From Alphaproteobacteria bacterium (GTDB lineage Bacteria > Pseudomonadota > Alphaproteobacteria > DSM-16000 > Inquilinaceae): a stretch of 64,000 nucleotides of DNA. Positions within the stretch are counted from its first letter, which is position 1, and every line of letters starts with the position of its first letter. Below, one piece after another: positions 37,553 to 42,566 of this stretch. The position numbers were made by a program, and so were the translations under genes. A model generated the notes under the pieces. The model was not told the DNA's origin, did no database searches, and saw only the letters and a program-made list of their open reading frames with translations. The stretch is from contig JANQIX010000001.1 in the NCBI GenBank assembly GCA_028281925.1, positions 62,001-126,000 of the forward strand, given 5' to 3'.

Positions 37553-37645
37553 GTCAGAACACCGCCCCGCTTCGGTCGCATTGCCGCCCCTTTCCTGGGT
37601 CTAGGTGTCGCAGGGTTCACGACATCGTGAGGGCGGGTGAAGGTC

Positions 37646-38518
37646 ATGGCCGAGCTCGTTGCACACGCCGCCGGCGCCGGGCGCAGCGCCGTCGCGCGGT
37701 TCGCCACCGATCCGCGCCACCTGCAGATCCTCAGCCTCGTCTCGCTGCTGGCGGTCACCCAGATCTGGCTCGATTTCCAGGCCTCGGCCTGGCAGTGCGC
37801 GGCCGCCGTCACAGCCGCCCTTGCAACGCAGTGGGCCGGCGACCGGTGGCTGGCCCGCCGGCCGTTCGAACCGCGCAGCGCCCTGATCACCAGCCTGTCG
37901 CTGTGCATCCTGCTCAGGGCCGGCGATGTTTGGTTGTTCGCCCTGGCGGGCCTGATCGCCATCGGCTCGAAATACGTCGTCCGATGGCGGGGACGGCACA
38001 TCTTCAACCCCGCAAATCTGGCGATCGTCGTGCTGCTGTTGGCCGTGGCACCCGACGTCTGGATCTCGCCGGGACAGTGGGGCCGGCCGGTCTGGCTGAT
38101 CTTCCTGATGATCTGCCTTGCCGTCGGCGTCTTGGGCAGTGCGCGGCGGGCGGACATCTCCATTGCCTTTCTCGCGGCTTACGCCGGCGCGCTGGCGGTC
38201 CGCGCGCTCTGGCTGGGCGATCCGCTGGTGATCCCGCTGCACCACCTGCAGTCTGGTGCCGTCTTGGTGTTCGCGTTCTTCATGATCTCCGACCCCAAGA
38301 CCAGCCCGGCCGCCCGGACGGGGCGCATCCTGTTCGCTGCAGCCGTCGCAGCGCTTGCCGTGTGGCTGCAGTTCGGCCTGCAGATCCGCGAGGGGTTGCT
38401 CTACGCGCTCGTCCTGCTCTGCCCCGTCGTCCCGCTGATCGACCGCGTGTTTCGGGCCGAGGCTTTCCGGTGGACCTCGCCCGACACGCACCTGACCGTG
38501 AAGGAGGCCCGATCATGA
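37646..38518 (+). CDS. Stand-alone RnfD/NqrB-like membrane protein
   Basis: A 290-residue membrane protein with about nine helices, similar to the RnfD/NqrB subunit of Rnf and Na-NQR complexes. GSKYVVRWRGRHIFNPANLAIV and LQSGAVLVFAFFMISDPKTSP are the conserved regions. In true RnfD/NqrB the second carries a Thr (SGAT) to which FMN is covalently bound; here the motif is SGAV, so flavinylation at this site is not expected. No other rnf or nqr genes are adjacent. Its stop overlaps the start of the first DUF2330 gene (ATGA), which ties it functionally to those exported proteins. GTG at 37637 is an alternative start. Confidence 0.8.
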   Translation: MAELVAHAAGAGRSAVARFATDPRHLQILSLVSLLAVTQIWLDFQASAWQCAAAVTAALATQWAGDRWLARRPFEPRSALITSLSLCILLRAGDVWLFALAGLIAIGSKYVVRWRGRHIFNPANLAIVVLLLAVAPDVWISPGQWGRPVWLIFLMICLAVGVLGSARRADISIAFLAAYAGALAVRALWLGDPLVIPLHHLQSGAVLVFAFFMISDPKTSPAARTGRILFAAAVAALAVWLQFGLQIREGLLYALVLLCPVVPLIDRVFRAEAFRWTSPDTHLTVKEARS

Positions 38519-39843
38519 TCCGTCTCTTGACCGCCCTTGCCGCCATGGCGTTCGTCTGTCTGGCCGGCTCTTCGGCCATGGCATTTTGCGGCTTCTATGT
38601 CGCCAGTGCCGGCACCTCGCTGTTCAACCAGGCCTCAAAGGTCGTGCTGGCCCGCTCCGGCGACCGGACGGTCATCACCATGGCGAACGATTTCCAGGGC
38701 GATGTCGACGAGTTCGCGGTCGTCATCCCGGTGCCGACCTTCATCGAGCGCGAGCAGATCCACGTGACCGAAAACGCCATCGTCGATCACCTGGACGCCT
38801 ATACCGCGCCGCGTCTCGTTGAATACTTCGACCGGGACCCGTGCGAACCGATCCCCGTGCCCATGACGTCCGCGCCGGATCTGGTCGGCGCGGCGGGCGA
38901 GGTTGCCCGCGGGGCCGGCGCAGCGGCGCTGGGCGTGACGGTGGAGGCGAGCTACACCGTCGGCGAGTACGACATCCAGATCCTGTCGGCGACAGAGAGC
39001 GGCGGCCTTGCCACCTGGCTGACGCAGAACGGCTATCGCATTCCCGATGGCGCCGGGCCAGTACTGGAAAGCTACCTGCGCCAGGGTGTGCGCTTCTTCG
39101 TTGCCAAGGTGAACCTGCAGGAGCAGGCGCGGCTGGGCTACAGCTATCTCCGCCCGCTGCAGGTGGCGTACGAGACCGACCGGTTCATGCTGCCGATCCG
39201 GCTCGGCACCGTGAACGCCAACGGGCCGCAAGAGCTGTTCCTGTTCACGCTGACGGAGAACGGCCGGGTCGAAACCACCAACTATCGCACCGTGCGTCTG
39301 CCCACGGGCCAGTCGATCCCGCTGTTCGTCGAGGACGACTTCGCCGACTTCTACACGGCCATGTTCGACCGCCAGGTGGCGCAGACGGGCATGCGCGCCG
39401 TCTTCCTGGAATATGCCTGGGACATGGCGTGGTGCGACCCCTGTGCGGCCGACCCGCTGAGCCCCAGCCAGCTTCGGGAACTGGGCGCTTTCTGGGTACG
39501 CGATGACGGGACCCAGGCGCGCAACGCCTTCGTGACGCGTCTGCATGTGCGGTACGACGCCGCGACCTTCCCGGAAGATCTGATGCTGCAGGAAACCGGC
39601 GACCGCGAGAACTTCCAGGGCCGCTATGTCCTGAACCATCCCTGGACCGGCTCGGCCGACTGTCCCGCGGCGGAGGACTATCGCGCCGCCCTGCCGCAAC
39701 GGTTCGAGGCGGAGGCTCAGGCCCTTGCCAGCCTGACGGGCTGGGATATTGCCGACATCCGCGACCGCATGACGGAAGGGGGCCAGTCCCCGGCCGATTT
39801 CGGCGCCGACGGGGATTGGTGGGAACGGCTTTGGGACGACTGA
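38515..39843 (+). CDS. DUF2330 exported protein, copy 1
   Basis: A 442-residue protein. The signal peptide is clear (MIRLLTALAAMAFVCLAGSS, cut near AMA-F), and the mature protein begins FCGFYVASAGTSLFNQ. The DUF2330 core has VVLARSGDRTVITMANDFQGD, an EFAVVIPVPTFI strand, VEASYTVGEYDIQILSA, and the cysteine motif WCDPCAADPLS. Other cysteines occur in DPCEP and DCPAAE. The domain is of unknown function and predicted periplasmic. The frame is open far upstream to 36613 because that region is antisense-like GC-rich sequence; the ATG at 38515, overlapping the RnfD-like stop, is the real start. Two further copies follow. Confidence 0.85.
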   Translation: MIRLLTALAAMAFVCLAGSSAMAFCGFYVASAGTSLFNQASKVVLARSGDRTVITMANDFQGDVDEFAVVIPVPTFIEREQIHVTENAIVDHLDAYTAPRLVEYFDRDPCEPIPVPMTSAPDLVGAAGEVARGAGAAALGVTVEASYTVGEYDIQILSATESGGLATWLTQNGYRIPDGAGPVLESYLRQGVRFFVAKVNLQEQARLGYSYLRPLQVAYETDRFMLPIRLGTVNANGPQELFLFTLTENGRVETTNYRTVRLPTGQSIPLFVEDDFADFYTAMFDRQVAQTGMRAVFLEYAWDMAWCDPCAADPLSPSQLRELGAFWVRDDGTQARNAFVTRLHVRYDAATFPEDLMLQETGDRENFQGRYVLNHPWTGSADCPAAEDYRAALPQRFEAEAQALASLTGWDIADIRDRMTEGGQSPADFGADGDWWERLWDD

Positions 39844-39874
39844 GAAAGCGGATCTTCAGGCGGGAGAAATGGTC

Positions 39875-41197
39875 ATGAAGCGCTTCCTGGCAGCCTTAAC
39901 GGCACTGCTGGCGGTCAGCCTGACTGCGGCATCGGCCGAGGCTTTCTGCGGCTTCTACGTCGCCAGTGCCGACACGTCGCTGTTCAACCAGTCATCGAAG
40001 GTGGTGCTGGCGCGCTCCGGCGACCGCACGGTCATCACCATGGCCAACGACTATCAGGGCGACCTTGACGAATTCGCCATCGTCATCCCAGTGCCGACCT
40101 TCATCGAGCGCGAGCAGATCCATGTGACCGAGAACGCAATCGTGGATCATCTCGACGCCTACACCGCACCCCGGCTGGTCCAGTACTTCGACGACGACCC
40201 CTGCCGCCCGATTGTCATCTACGACGGACGGGTGGAGATGAGCGCCGGAGAGGTGCCGTCTGAAGGCGGCAGCCGCGCCCGCGGCGTGACGGTGGAGGCG
40301 AGCTATACGGTCGGCGAATACGACATTCAGATCCTCTCGGCCACCGAGAGCACCGGGCTCGCCGCCTGGCTGACGGAGAACGGCTACCGCATCCCCGATG
40401 GCGCGGAACCGGTGCTGGAAAGCTATCTGCGCCAGGGCGTACGCTTCTTCGTCGCCAAGGTGAACCTCGAAGAGCAGCAGCGGCTTGGCTACAACTATCT
40501 CCGCCCGTTGCAGGTGGCCTATGAGACCGACCGGTTCATGCTGCCGATCCGTCTCGGCACCGTAAACGCCAACGGGCCGCAGGAACTGTTCCTGTTCACG
40601 CTCACCCGCAACGGCCGGGTCGAGACCACCAACTACCGCACCGTGCGCATGCCCACCGGCCAGTCGATCCCGCTGTTCGTGGAGGACGACTTTGCCGACT
40701 TCTACACGGCCATGTTCGACCGCCAGGTGGACCAGACGGGCATGCGCGCGGTTTTCCTGGAATATGCCTGGGACATGGCGTGGTGCGACCCCTGTGCCGC
40801 CGACCCGCTGAGCCCCGCCCAGCTGCGCGAACTGGGCGCCTTCTGGGTGCAGGACGACGGCGACAGCCAGGCACGCGATGCGTTCGTGACCCGCCTGCAC
40901 GTGCGGTACGACGCGGAGACTTTCCCGGAAGATCTGATGCTGCACGAGACCGGCGACCGCGAGAACTTCCAGGGCCGATATGTGCTGACCAGGCCCTGGA
41001 CCGGCGCCGTCGACTGCCCGGCCGGCCGCGACTACGTAGCCGCCCTGCCGCGGCGCTTCGAGACAGAGGCCCAGACGCTCGCCAGTCTGACCGGCTGGGA
41101 CATTTCGGACATCCGCGCGCGCATGGAAGCCGGCGGCCAGCCCTTCACCGTCGACAACGACGACGCGGACTGGTGGGAACGGCTCTGGGACGATTGA
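39875..41197 (+). CDS. DUF2330 exported protein, copy 2
   Basis: A 440-residue paralogue, very similar to copy 1 over its full length. It has a signal peptide (KRFLAALTALLAVSLTAASA, mature start near FCGFYVASADTSLFNQ), the same WCDPCAADPLSPAQLRE motif, and the ending DWWERLWDD. The variable region is at about residues 105-130, where copy 1 has an Ala/Gly-rich insert and this one a shorter acidic segment (SAGEVPSEGGSRA). ATG at 39875 is preferred to 39869 because GGGAG is then at proper spacing. The 31-base gap after copy 1 suggests co-transcription. Confidence 0.85.
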   Translation: MKRFLAALTALLAVSLTAASAEAFCGFYVASADTSLFNQSSKVVLARSGDRTVITMANDYQGDLDEFAIVIPVPTFIEREQIHVTENAIVDHLDAYTAPRLVQYFDDDPCRPIVIYDGRVEMSAGEVPSEGGSRARGVTVEASYTVGEYDIQILSATESTGLAAWLTENGYRIPDGAEPVLESYLRQGVRFFVAKVNLEEQQRLGYNYLRPLQVAYETDRFMLPIRLGTVNANGPQELFLFTLTRNGRVETTNYRTVRMPTGQSIPLFVEDDFADFYTAMFDRQVDQTGMRAVFLEYAWDMAWCDPCAADPLSPAQLRELGAFWVQDDGDSQARDAFVTRLHVRYDAETFPEDLMLHETGDRENFQGRYVLTRPWTGAVDCPAGRDYVAALPRRFETEAQTLASLTGWDISDIRARMEAGGQPFTVDNDDADWWERLWDD

Positions 41198-41240
41198 GGC
41201 GGCAGACCAGAAACACAAAAGCCAGGCGGGAGATTGGATC

Positions 41241-42566
41241 ATGAAGCGCGTGTTGGCGGCCGTGGCGACGCTGTTGGCGGTCAGCTTGATGGCCCCATTG
41301 GCCGAAGCCTTCTGCGGCTTCTATGTCGCCGGCGCCGAGACCTCGCTGTTCAACCAGTCATCGAAGGTGGTGCTGGCGCGCTCGGGCGACCGCACGGTCA
41401 TAACGATGGCCAACGACTTTCAGGGCGATCCCGACGAATTCGCCATCGTCATTCCGGTGCCTACCTTTATCGAACGCGACCAGATCCGTGTCAGCGACAA
41501 TGCCGTCATCGACCACCTAGACGCCTTCACGGCACCGCGCCTGGTCGAATACTTCGACGGGGACCCGTGCCGGACATTCAGCGCCTTTACCGATCGGGGC
41601 ATCATGTACCTGGCGGGTCCGTCCCAGCCGATAGACAGGGGCGATACTTTCGGCGTTGAGGTGGAGGCCAGCTACGCCGTAGGCGAGTACGACATTCAGA
41701 TCCTCTCCGCGACGGAGAGCGACGGCCTCGCCAGCTGGTTGACCGAAAACGGCTACCGCATCCCCGAGGGCGCGGAGCCCGTTCTGGCGAGCTATCTGCG
41801 TCAAGGCGTGCGGTTCTTCGTCGCCAAGGTCAACCTGCAAGAACAGGCGCGGCTGGGATACAACTACCTGCGGCCGCTGCAGGTCGCCTATGAAACCAAC
41901 CGATTCATGCTGCCGATCCGCCTCGGCATGGTGAACGCGGATGGTCCCCAAGAACTCTTCCTGTTCACGCTCACCCGCGAGGGCCGGGTCGAGACCACCA
42001 ACTACCGCACCGTGCGCCTGCCGACGGGACAGTCGGTCCCGCTCTATGTGGAGGACACTTTCGCCGAGTTCTACAAGGCCATGTTCGATCGTCAGGTCGA
42101 ACAAACGGGCATGCAGGCGGTCTTTCTCGAATATGCCTGGGACATGGGGTGGTGCGACCCGTGCGCTGCCGATCCGTTGAGCCCCGCTCAACTGCGCGAA
42201 CTCGGCGCTTTCTGGGTGGAGGGTGACGATGGCAGCCAGGGGAGCGACGTGTTCGTTACCCGCCTGCACGCGCGCTATGACGCCGAACACTTTCCGGAAG
42301 ACCTGATGCTGCAGGAAACCGGCGACGACTCGCCGTTCCAGGGCCGCTATATCCTGAATCACCCCTGGATTGGTCTCCCGCTGTGCCAGGCGGCCTGGGA
42401 CTACCTCGCCCGCCTGCCGGAGCATTTCGACAGGGAGGCTGAAACCCTCGCCGACCTGACCGGCTGGGATGTCGTGGAAATCCGCGACCGGATGGACACC
42501 CAAGGCCAGGCCTGGCTGCTCAACTTGGGCAACGACGCGTTGTGGCCGGTGTTTCAGCGGCAGTGA
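41241..42566 (+). CDS. DUF2330 exported protein, copy 3
   Basis: A 441-residue paralogue, the most divergent of the three. It has the same signal peptide pattern (VLAAVATLLAVSLMAPLAEA, mature start FCGFYVAGAETSLF), WCDPCAADPLSPAQLRE, and QETGDDSPFQGRYILNHPW. It differs in the region after DPCRTF, and its tail ends NLGNDALWPVFQRQ instead of DWWERLWDD. GGGAG precedes the ATG at 8 bases, exactly as in copy 2, so the copies share a duplicated leader. The stop is 4 bases from the convergent TetR gene. Confidence 0.85.
   Translation: MKRVLAAVATLLAVSLMAPLAEAFCGFYVAGAETSLFNQSSKVVLARSGDRTVITMANDFQGDPDEFAIVIPVPTFIERDQIRVSDNAVIDHLDAFTAPRLVEYFDGDPCRTFSAFTDRGIMYLAGPSQPIDRGDTFGVEVEASYAVGEYDIQILSATESDGLASWLTENGYRIPEGAEPVLASYLRQGVRFFVAKVNLQEQARLGYNYLRPLQVAYETNRFMLPIRLGMVNADGPQELFLFTLTREGRVETTNYRTVRLPTGQSVPLYVEDTFAEFYKAMFDRQVEQTGMQAVFLEYAWDMGWCDPCAADPLSPAQLRELGAFWVEGDDGSQGSDVFVTRLHARYDAEHFPEDLMLQETGDDSPFQGRYILNHPWIGLPLCQAAWDYLARLPEHFDREAETLADLTGWDVVEIRDRMDTQGQAWLLNLGNDALWPVFQRQ

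Follow-up and report, generated by a model that had tools for sequence, protein, structure and literature searches.

A conserved gene pair joins a short RnfD-like membrane protein to exported, cysteine-bearing DUF2330 proteins

Why should a gene for an RnfD-like integral membrane protein stand directly upstream of three tandem genes for exported DUF2330 proteins? This arrangement occurs in a 64,000-nucleotide stretch of an alphaproteobacterial genome of the Inquilinaceae (contig JANQIX010000001.1, positions 62,001 to 126,000; hereafter the window). A first-pass annotation of the stretch had read it as a possible redox system, in which the DUF2330 proteins would be periplasmic partners of a non-flavinylated, Rnf-derived membrane protein, and had stated that no function is described for DUF2330; indeed, no paper under that name or accession was found among 5.39 million full texts. 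The Pfam assignments are secure: PF03116 scores 80.6 bits in the RnfD-like protein (cut-off 27.7) and PF10092 (DUF2330) scores 279–299 bits in all three copies (cut-off 24.7). We therefore asked how regularly the two genes occur together, what the membrane protein has retained from RnfD and what the pair might do.

When the 80 nearest DUF2330 loci were taken from named genomes, a sample biased to near relatives, 79 of them had an RnfD-like gene beside DUF2330 on the same strand (∼0.8 kb further off at L112). These loci come from Alpha- and Gammaproteobacteria, Myxococcota, Acidobacteriota, Nitrospirota, Verrucomicrobiota, Rokuibacteriota and Krumholzibacteriota. From the phylum of an acidobacterial locus, 297 genomes were sampled evenly, and strong matches to DUF2330 and to the short RnfD-like protein were counted. 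Strong DUF2330 matches were found in 14 genomes and strong short-RnfD matches in the identical 14 and no others, for which simple arithmetic that ignores kinship gives odds of ∼1 in 10^23. In 13 of these pair genomes the genes are adjacent with the RnfD-like gene upstream, and in G879 they are on different contigs. The reverse order is exceptional among the pairs seen, with the RnfD-like gene following DUF2330 at L014 (genome G186) and likewise lying downstream at L077. No other neighboring gene is conserved across phyla around the pair, and a wider conserved operon was ruled out, the neighbors beyond the pair being clade-specific.

A different picture emerged when 289 genomes were sampled evenly from the window's class: eight of them, the window genome included, encode a full-length WCDPC-type DUF2330 protein (the motif is described below). 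Three of the eight have an RnfD-like gene, adjacent in each case, whereas five have none anywhere in the genome. Occurrence of DUF2330 mostly without the RnfD-like gene was what the first-pass annotation had taken as the pattern that would speak against a partnership. DUF2330 genes with no RnfD-like gene do exist, in these five alphaproteobacterial genomes and among all distant DUF2330 proteins tested, but they are not the majority of the WCDPC subfamily over all samples. Phylum-wide samples of Pseudomonadota and of one further phylum contained too few DUF2330 genomes for pair counts. On a DUF2330 tree the partner state changes at least three times, and no genome lacking DUF2330 was found to carry a close RnfD-like protein. 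The two genes are strongly coupled, but in one direction only: DUF2330 can outlast the RnfD-like gene.

Physical linkage goes further in some genomes. At six loci (L078, L096, L097, L102, L105 and L109) the RnfD-like and DUF2330 sequences share one reading frame with no stop between them, both Pfam domains being detected in the L109 and L102 fusions, and three further open frames of 751–895 aa in genomes G870, G746 and G831 bring the natural fusions to at least nine. Distances between RnfD-like proteins correlate with those between the DUF2330 proteins (Mantel r 0.64, with none of 2000 permutations as high). For the L109 fusion, an AlphaFold model has a predicted local distance difference test score (pLDDT) of 83.3 and a predicted template modeling score (pTM) of 0.77 over 699 residues; this pTM is higher than we would expect if the two domains were placed independently, although the model came without an interface error matrix. 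The best fold matches of its membrane part are RnfD/NqrB structures (9eri_D, 8rbq_D, 7zc6_D and 7xk3_B), and the next is a urea transporter (E 0.016, probability 0.97). Taken with the partner-specific clades described below, the counts and the fusions bear out the proposal that the DUF2330 proteins are dedicated partners of the RnfD-like protein. We are confident that the pairing represents a conserved two-gene module, and the two proteins very likely operate as a single unit of the cell envelope.

Does the membrane subunit still carry a flavin? The first-pass annotation had called it non-flavinylated on the grounds that it has SGAV where flavinylated relatives have SGAT. The conclusion is correct but the reason is not, since SGAV aligns with the C-terminal LLSGAT279 of Escherichia coli RsxD and not with T187, the flavinylated threonine of that protein. 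In RsxD, T187 sits in a periplasmic segment that follows FNPA and precedes the second half of the protein; this segment is missing from the window protein. The corresponding residue in Clostridium tetanomorphum RnfD is Thr153 (PMC9588780). No ApbE was found in the host genome by a search that, as a control, detected ApbE in 7 of 14 known genomes. Covalent flavin on the RnfD-like protein was ruled out on the basis of both the missing Thr-bearing loop and the missing ApbE. Across the 297-genome draw, ApbE is present in 13 of the 14 pair genomes and in 191 genomes overall, a weak enrichment, and flavinylation is not required by the pair because G000 and G746 lack ApbE. The rnfD subfamily model TIGR01946 was not reached either (60.5 bits, cut-off 207).

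The non-covalent flavin site is a different matter. In NqrB, riboflavin is contacted by G198, N200, T162, D346, A205, F342 and N203 (PMC10643135). In 53 relatives of the window protein the positions of N203 and D346 are invariably Asn and Asp, that of T162 is always Ser or Thr and that of N200 is always His; F342 is Phe in 52 and Tyr in one, A205 is Ala or Thr in 51 and G198 is Gly in 34. The short RnfD-like protein keeps nearly all riboflavin-contact positions, from which we infer that it binds riboflavin. The alignment of the 53 sequences has 23 invariant columns, intramembrane Lys, His, Asn and Asp positions among them.

The DUF2330 partners are equally distinctive. As the first-pass annotation had noted, all three copies keep WCDPC and other cysteines: each has a signal peptide with an AxA-type end, FCGFYV after it, the WCDPC motif and exactly five mature cysteines (C25, C110, C307, C310 and C383 in copy 1). 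Exactly five mature cysteines are present in 106 of 107 WCDPC-type proteins, usually with an AxA end and Cys as mature residue 2. WCDPC itself is found in 105 of the 107 and CDPC in the remaining two. A c-type haem site (CxxCH) was ruled out, as the aligned sequences have Ala after CDPC where His would be needed. A thioredoxin-like role read from WCDPC was also ruled out as a family assignment: in an AlphaFold model of copy 1 (pLDDT 83.6, pTM 0.81) WCDPC lies in a loop between a strand and a short helix, and a fold search returned no thioredoxin match. The top Foldseek matches of the model in both libraries were the P35/P49 proteins of baculoviruses and entomopoxviruses (E ∼1e-3, probability 0.9–1.0), with TM-scores of 0.22–0.43, below the fold criterion of 0.5, and root-mean-square deviations of ∼8–14 Å. 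No sequence similarity between P35/P49 and DUF2330 was found, and a PDB sequence search with DUF2330 gave nothing relevant. As the sole recurrent match, the modeled resemblance may offer a weak lead on the DUF2330 fold. More distant members of PF10092 (L151, L152, L166–L170 and L011) share the Pfam family but differ in having neither WCDPC, nor the five-cysteine pattern, nor an RnfD-like partner, with no short-RnfD match within the 1.5 kb flanks examined. Pfam DUF2330 appears to lump together proteins of two or more different kinds.

Short RnfD-like proteins are not confined to DUF2330 partners. A second tier of the short-RnfD profile search, at 136–166 bits, comprised 13 genomes without strong DUF2330, and in all 13 the gene adjoins one for an FG-GAP/UnbV_ASPIC protein (Pfam was run on five). 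The short RnfD-like genes of such pairs (L188–L200, L022, which is fused, L023 and L031) make up a sister clade; their membrane proteins are likewise short and loopless, with an RH-[IL]-[FYW]-NP motif and an adjacent or fused large partner, but group separately from the DUF2330-paired ones. His at the NqrB N200 position is common to both groups. In a third, more distant tier, L201 lies beside FMN_bind and L202 beside ApbE. In the same distant group, L203 has a cytochrome c gene nearby on the opposite strand. On the RnfD tree the partner labels need four changes, which is the minimum, compared with a mean of 25.9 after shuffling. Each partner type (DUF2330, FG-GAP/UnbV and FMN_bind/ApbE surroundings) sits with its own RnfD-like clade, although long branches leave the exact branching uncertain. 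In the literature library searched, no paper was found on the pairing of RnfD-like proteins with FG-GAP/UnbV, nor on UnbU/UnbV with enediynes or RnfD.

What, then, might the pair do? The mechanism we favor, with a probability somewhat short of even, is that a riboflavin-containing membrane subunit hands electrons to the cysteines of periplasmic DUF2330. Our preference is based on the fold, the kept flavin site and the FMN_bind and ApbE neighbors of the distant short RnfD-like genes. The membrane protein would adopt the ten-helix RnfD fold, with a flavin bound non-covalently close to the cytoplasmic side. Since the termini of RnfD are cytoplasmic (PMC9588780) and a signal sequence follows the RnfD-like part, DUF2330 is placed outside, where it would dock on the periplasmic face. 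Electrons, entering from the quinol pool or from a cytosolic donor, would travel via this flavin to the conserved cysteines of DUF2330. These would take over the role of periplasmic acceptor that a flavinylated RnfG/NqrC-type partner has in known Rnf-like systems; the three tandem copies could be alternative partners of one membrane subunit. Several observations weigh against this mechanism. Loss of the FMN (flavin mononucleotide) leaves a gap between riboflavin on the cytoplasmic side and the periplasm, an electron-input domain (NAD-binding or Fe-S) is neither fused nor neighboring, and no Cys is invariant among the aligned RnfD-like relatives. In addition, the modeled WCDPC is not part of a thioredoxin fold and the motif is not followed by His, the cysteines may be structural disulfides since they are kept in lineages without an RnfD-like gene, and the FG-GAP/UnbV partners of the sister class have no known redox role.

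The FMN gap, the missing input domain and the persistence of the cysteines without the partner make transport and assembly or anchoring serious rivals, although we consider each unlikely. In a transport module, the RnfD-like protein would move an ion or small solute with DUF2330 as a periplasmic gate, receptor or substrate-binding partner, and no electrons would be transferred. RnfD and NqrB do resemble urea and ammonium transporters (PMC9588780, PMC10643135), and the fusion model also matches the urea transporter; the FMN site is lost, the conserved Asp has been proposed to serve Na+ besides riboflavin and one membrane type carries differing periplasmic partners. However, the urea transporter match is far weaker than those to RnfD/NqrB, the riboflavin-contact positions are kept as a set, and the neighborhoods contain neither a transport partner nor a clue to a substrate. 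Alternatively, the RnfD-like protein would serve as an inner-membrane tether for DUF2330 or would aid its folding, disulfide formation or export, DUF2330 being the effector and able to act alone. This idea, to which we assign a similarly low likelihood, accommodates the asymmetric dependence, in which DUF2330 outlasts loss of its partner and close RnfD-like proteins were found only in DUF2330 genomes, as well as the natural fusions and the several DUF2330 copies per RnfD-like gene; but a plain anchor has no need of invariant intramembrane Lys, His, Asn and Asp, and a DsbB/DsbD-like role would lack a conserved Cys. That the RnfD-like protein is merely a decaying Rnf subunit beside an unrelated gene might be suspected from the lost flavinylation loop and from a genome with no other RnfD/NqrB and no ApbE. 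This is contradicted by conservation, namely a ratio of nonsynonymous to synonymous substitution rates (Ka/Ks) of 0.10, the invariant columns, the pairing across many phyla and the fusions, and we regard it as extremely improbable.

The pair can be set against systems already described. The window protein resembles RnfD of Rnf and NqrB of Na+-NQR in its PF03116 domain, in the fold of the fusion model and in the riboflavin-site Asn and Asp, but it is ∼60–70 residues shorter and has no flavinylation loop or Thr. Unlike in the Rnf complex, no Rnf or Nqr genes are conserved nearby; the RnfA/B/C/G/E families were not searched genome-wide. With the Nqr/Rnf-like two-subunit flavinylation systems (PMC8238504, PMC10979944) it shares an RnfD-like subunit without the flavinylation Thr and a single extracytosolic partner. 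It differs in lacking a C-terminal NAD-binding domain (PF00175), Pfam finding only PF03116, and in having DUF2330 rather than an NqrC/RnfG-type FMN_bind partner. A broader and rather doubtful proposal is that the short RnfD-type proteins serve generally as flavin-carrying platforms in the membrane, each clade having been paired with its own kind of envelope protein (FMN_bind-type, FG-GAP/UnbV or cysteine-bearing DUF2330). The pairs would then constitute a class, not described before, of minimal modules that transfer electrons across the membrane with no covalent flavin, no quinone-reductase subunits and no cytochromes, and DUF2330 would be a new type of periplasmic redox protein.

Whatever the chemistry, the DUF2330 family gains a specific membrane partner, a defined subfamily marked by five cysteines and WCDPC, and residues for mutation, while the RnfD fold is suggested to have another use, in which it forms the membrane part of small envelope modules made of two proteins. 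Such modules are carried by diderm bacteria that are widespread in soils and in the sea, Nitrospira, Acidobacteriota and Woeseiaceae among them.

The layout of the locus is given in Table 1. The first-pass reading of the gene junctions was confirmed: the RnfD-like TGA (38516–38518) shares the sequence ATGA with the ATG of DUF2330-1 (38515), and gaps of 31 and 43 bases precede DUF2330-2 and DUF2330-3, respectively.

Table 1. Genes and motifs of the RnfD-like/DUF2330 locus (window coordinates)
Feature	Position	Strand	Remarks
Short RnfD-like integral membrane protein, 290 aa, PF03116	37646..38518	+	ATG start
HIFNPAN motif; H118 aligns with NqrB riboflavin ligand N200, and N121 with N203	37997..38017	+	Alignment; ligands from PMC10643135
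WISPGQWG, conserved segment where true RnfD has the ∼70-residue flavinylation loop (absent here)	38060..38083	+	Alignment
SGAV, aligned to C-terminal SGAT (T279) of E. coli RsxD	38252..38263	+	Alignment
FFMISDP; F212 aligns with NqrB F342, and D216 with D346 (riboflavin)	38276..38296	+	Alignment
DUF2330 copy 1 (d1), exported, 442 aa	38515..39843	+	WCDPC at 39430–39444
DUF2330 copy 2 (d2), exported, 440 aa	39875..41197	+	WCDPC at 40781–40795
DUF2330 copy 3 (d3), exported, 441 aa, divergent C-terminus	41241..42566	+	WCDPC at 42150–42164

The host genome has three DUF2330 copies in total, all at this locus, and the RnfD-like gene is its only PF03116 gene. One same-genus genome with DUF2330 was found (G523), and its array (L120) reads RnfD-d1-dX-d2, compared with d1-d2-d3 in the window; d3 has no one-to-one ortholog in G523, nor dX a one-to-one counterpart in the window. 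The RnfD-like, d1 and d2 proteins are ∼94–95% identical between the two genomes, and Ka/Ks values of 0.09–0.11 for these orthologs indicate purifying selection, while the composition of the array turns over. Such selection, together with conservation, excludes chance open reading frames. Most related genomes carry a single DUF2330 copy, with two copies also at L083 and L089, and the triple tandem is a trait of this genus and not of the module, which is usually one-copy. Alternative starts are available at two of the genes, an in-frame GTG at 37637 upstream of the RnfD-like ATG and an ATG at 39869 for DUF2330-2.

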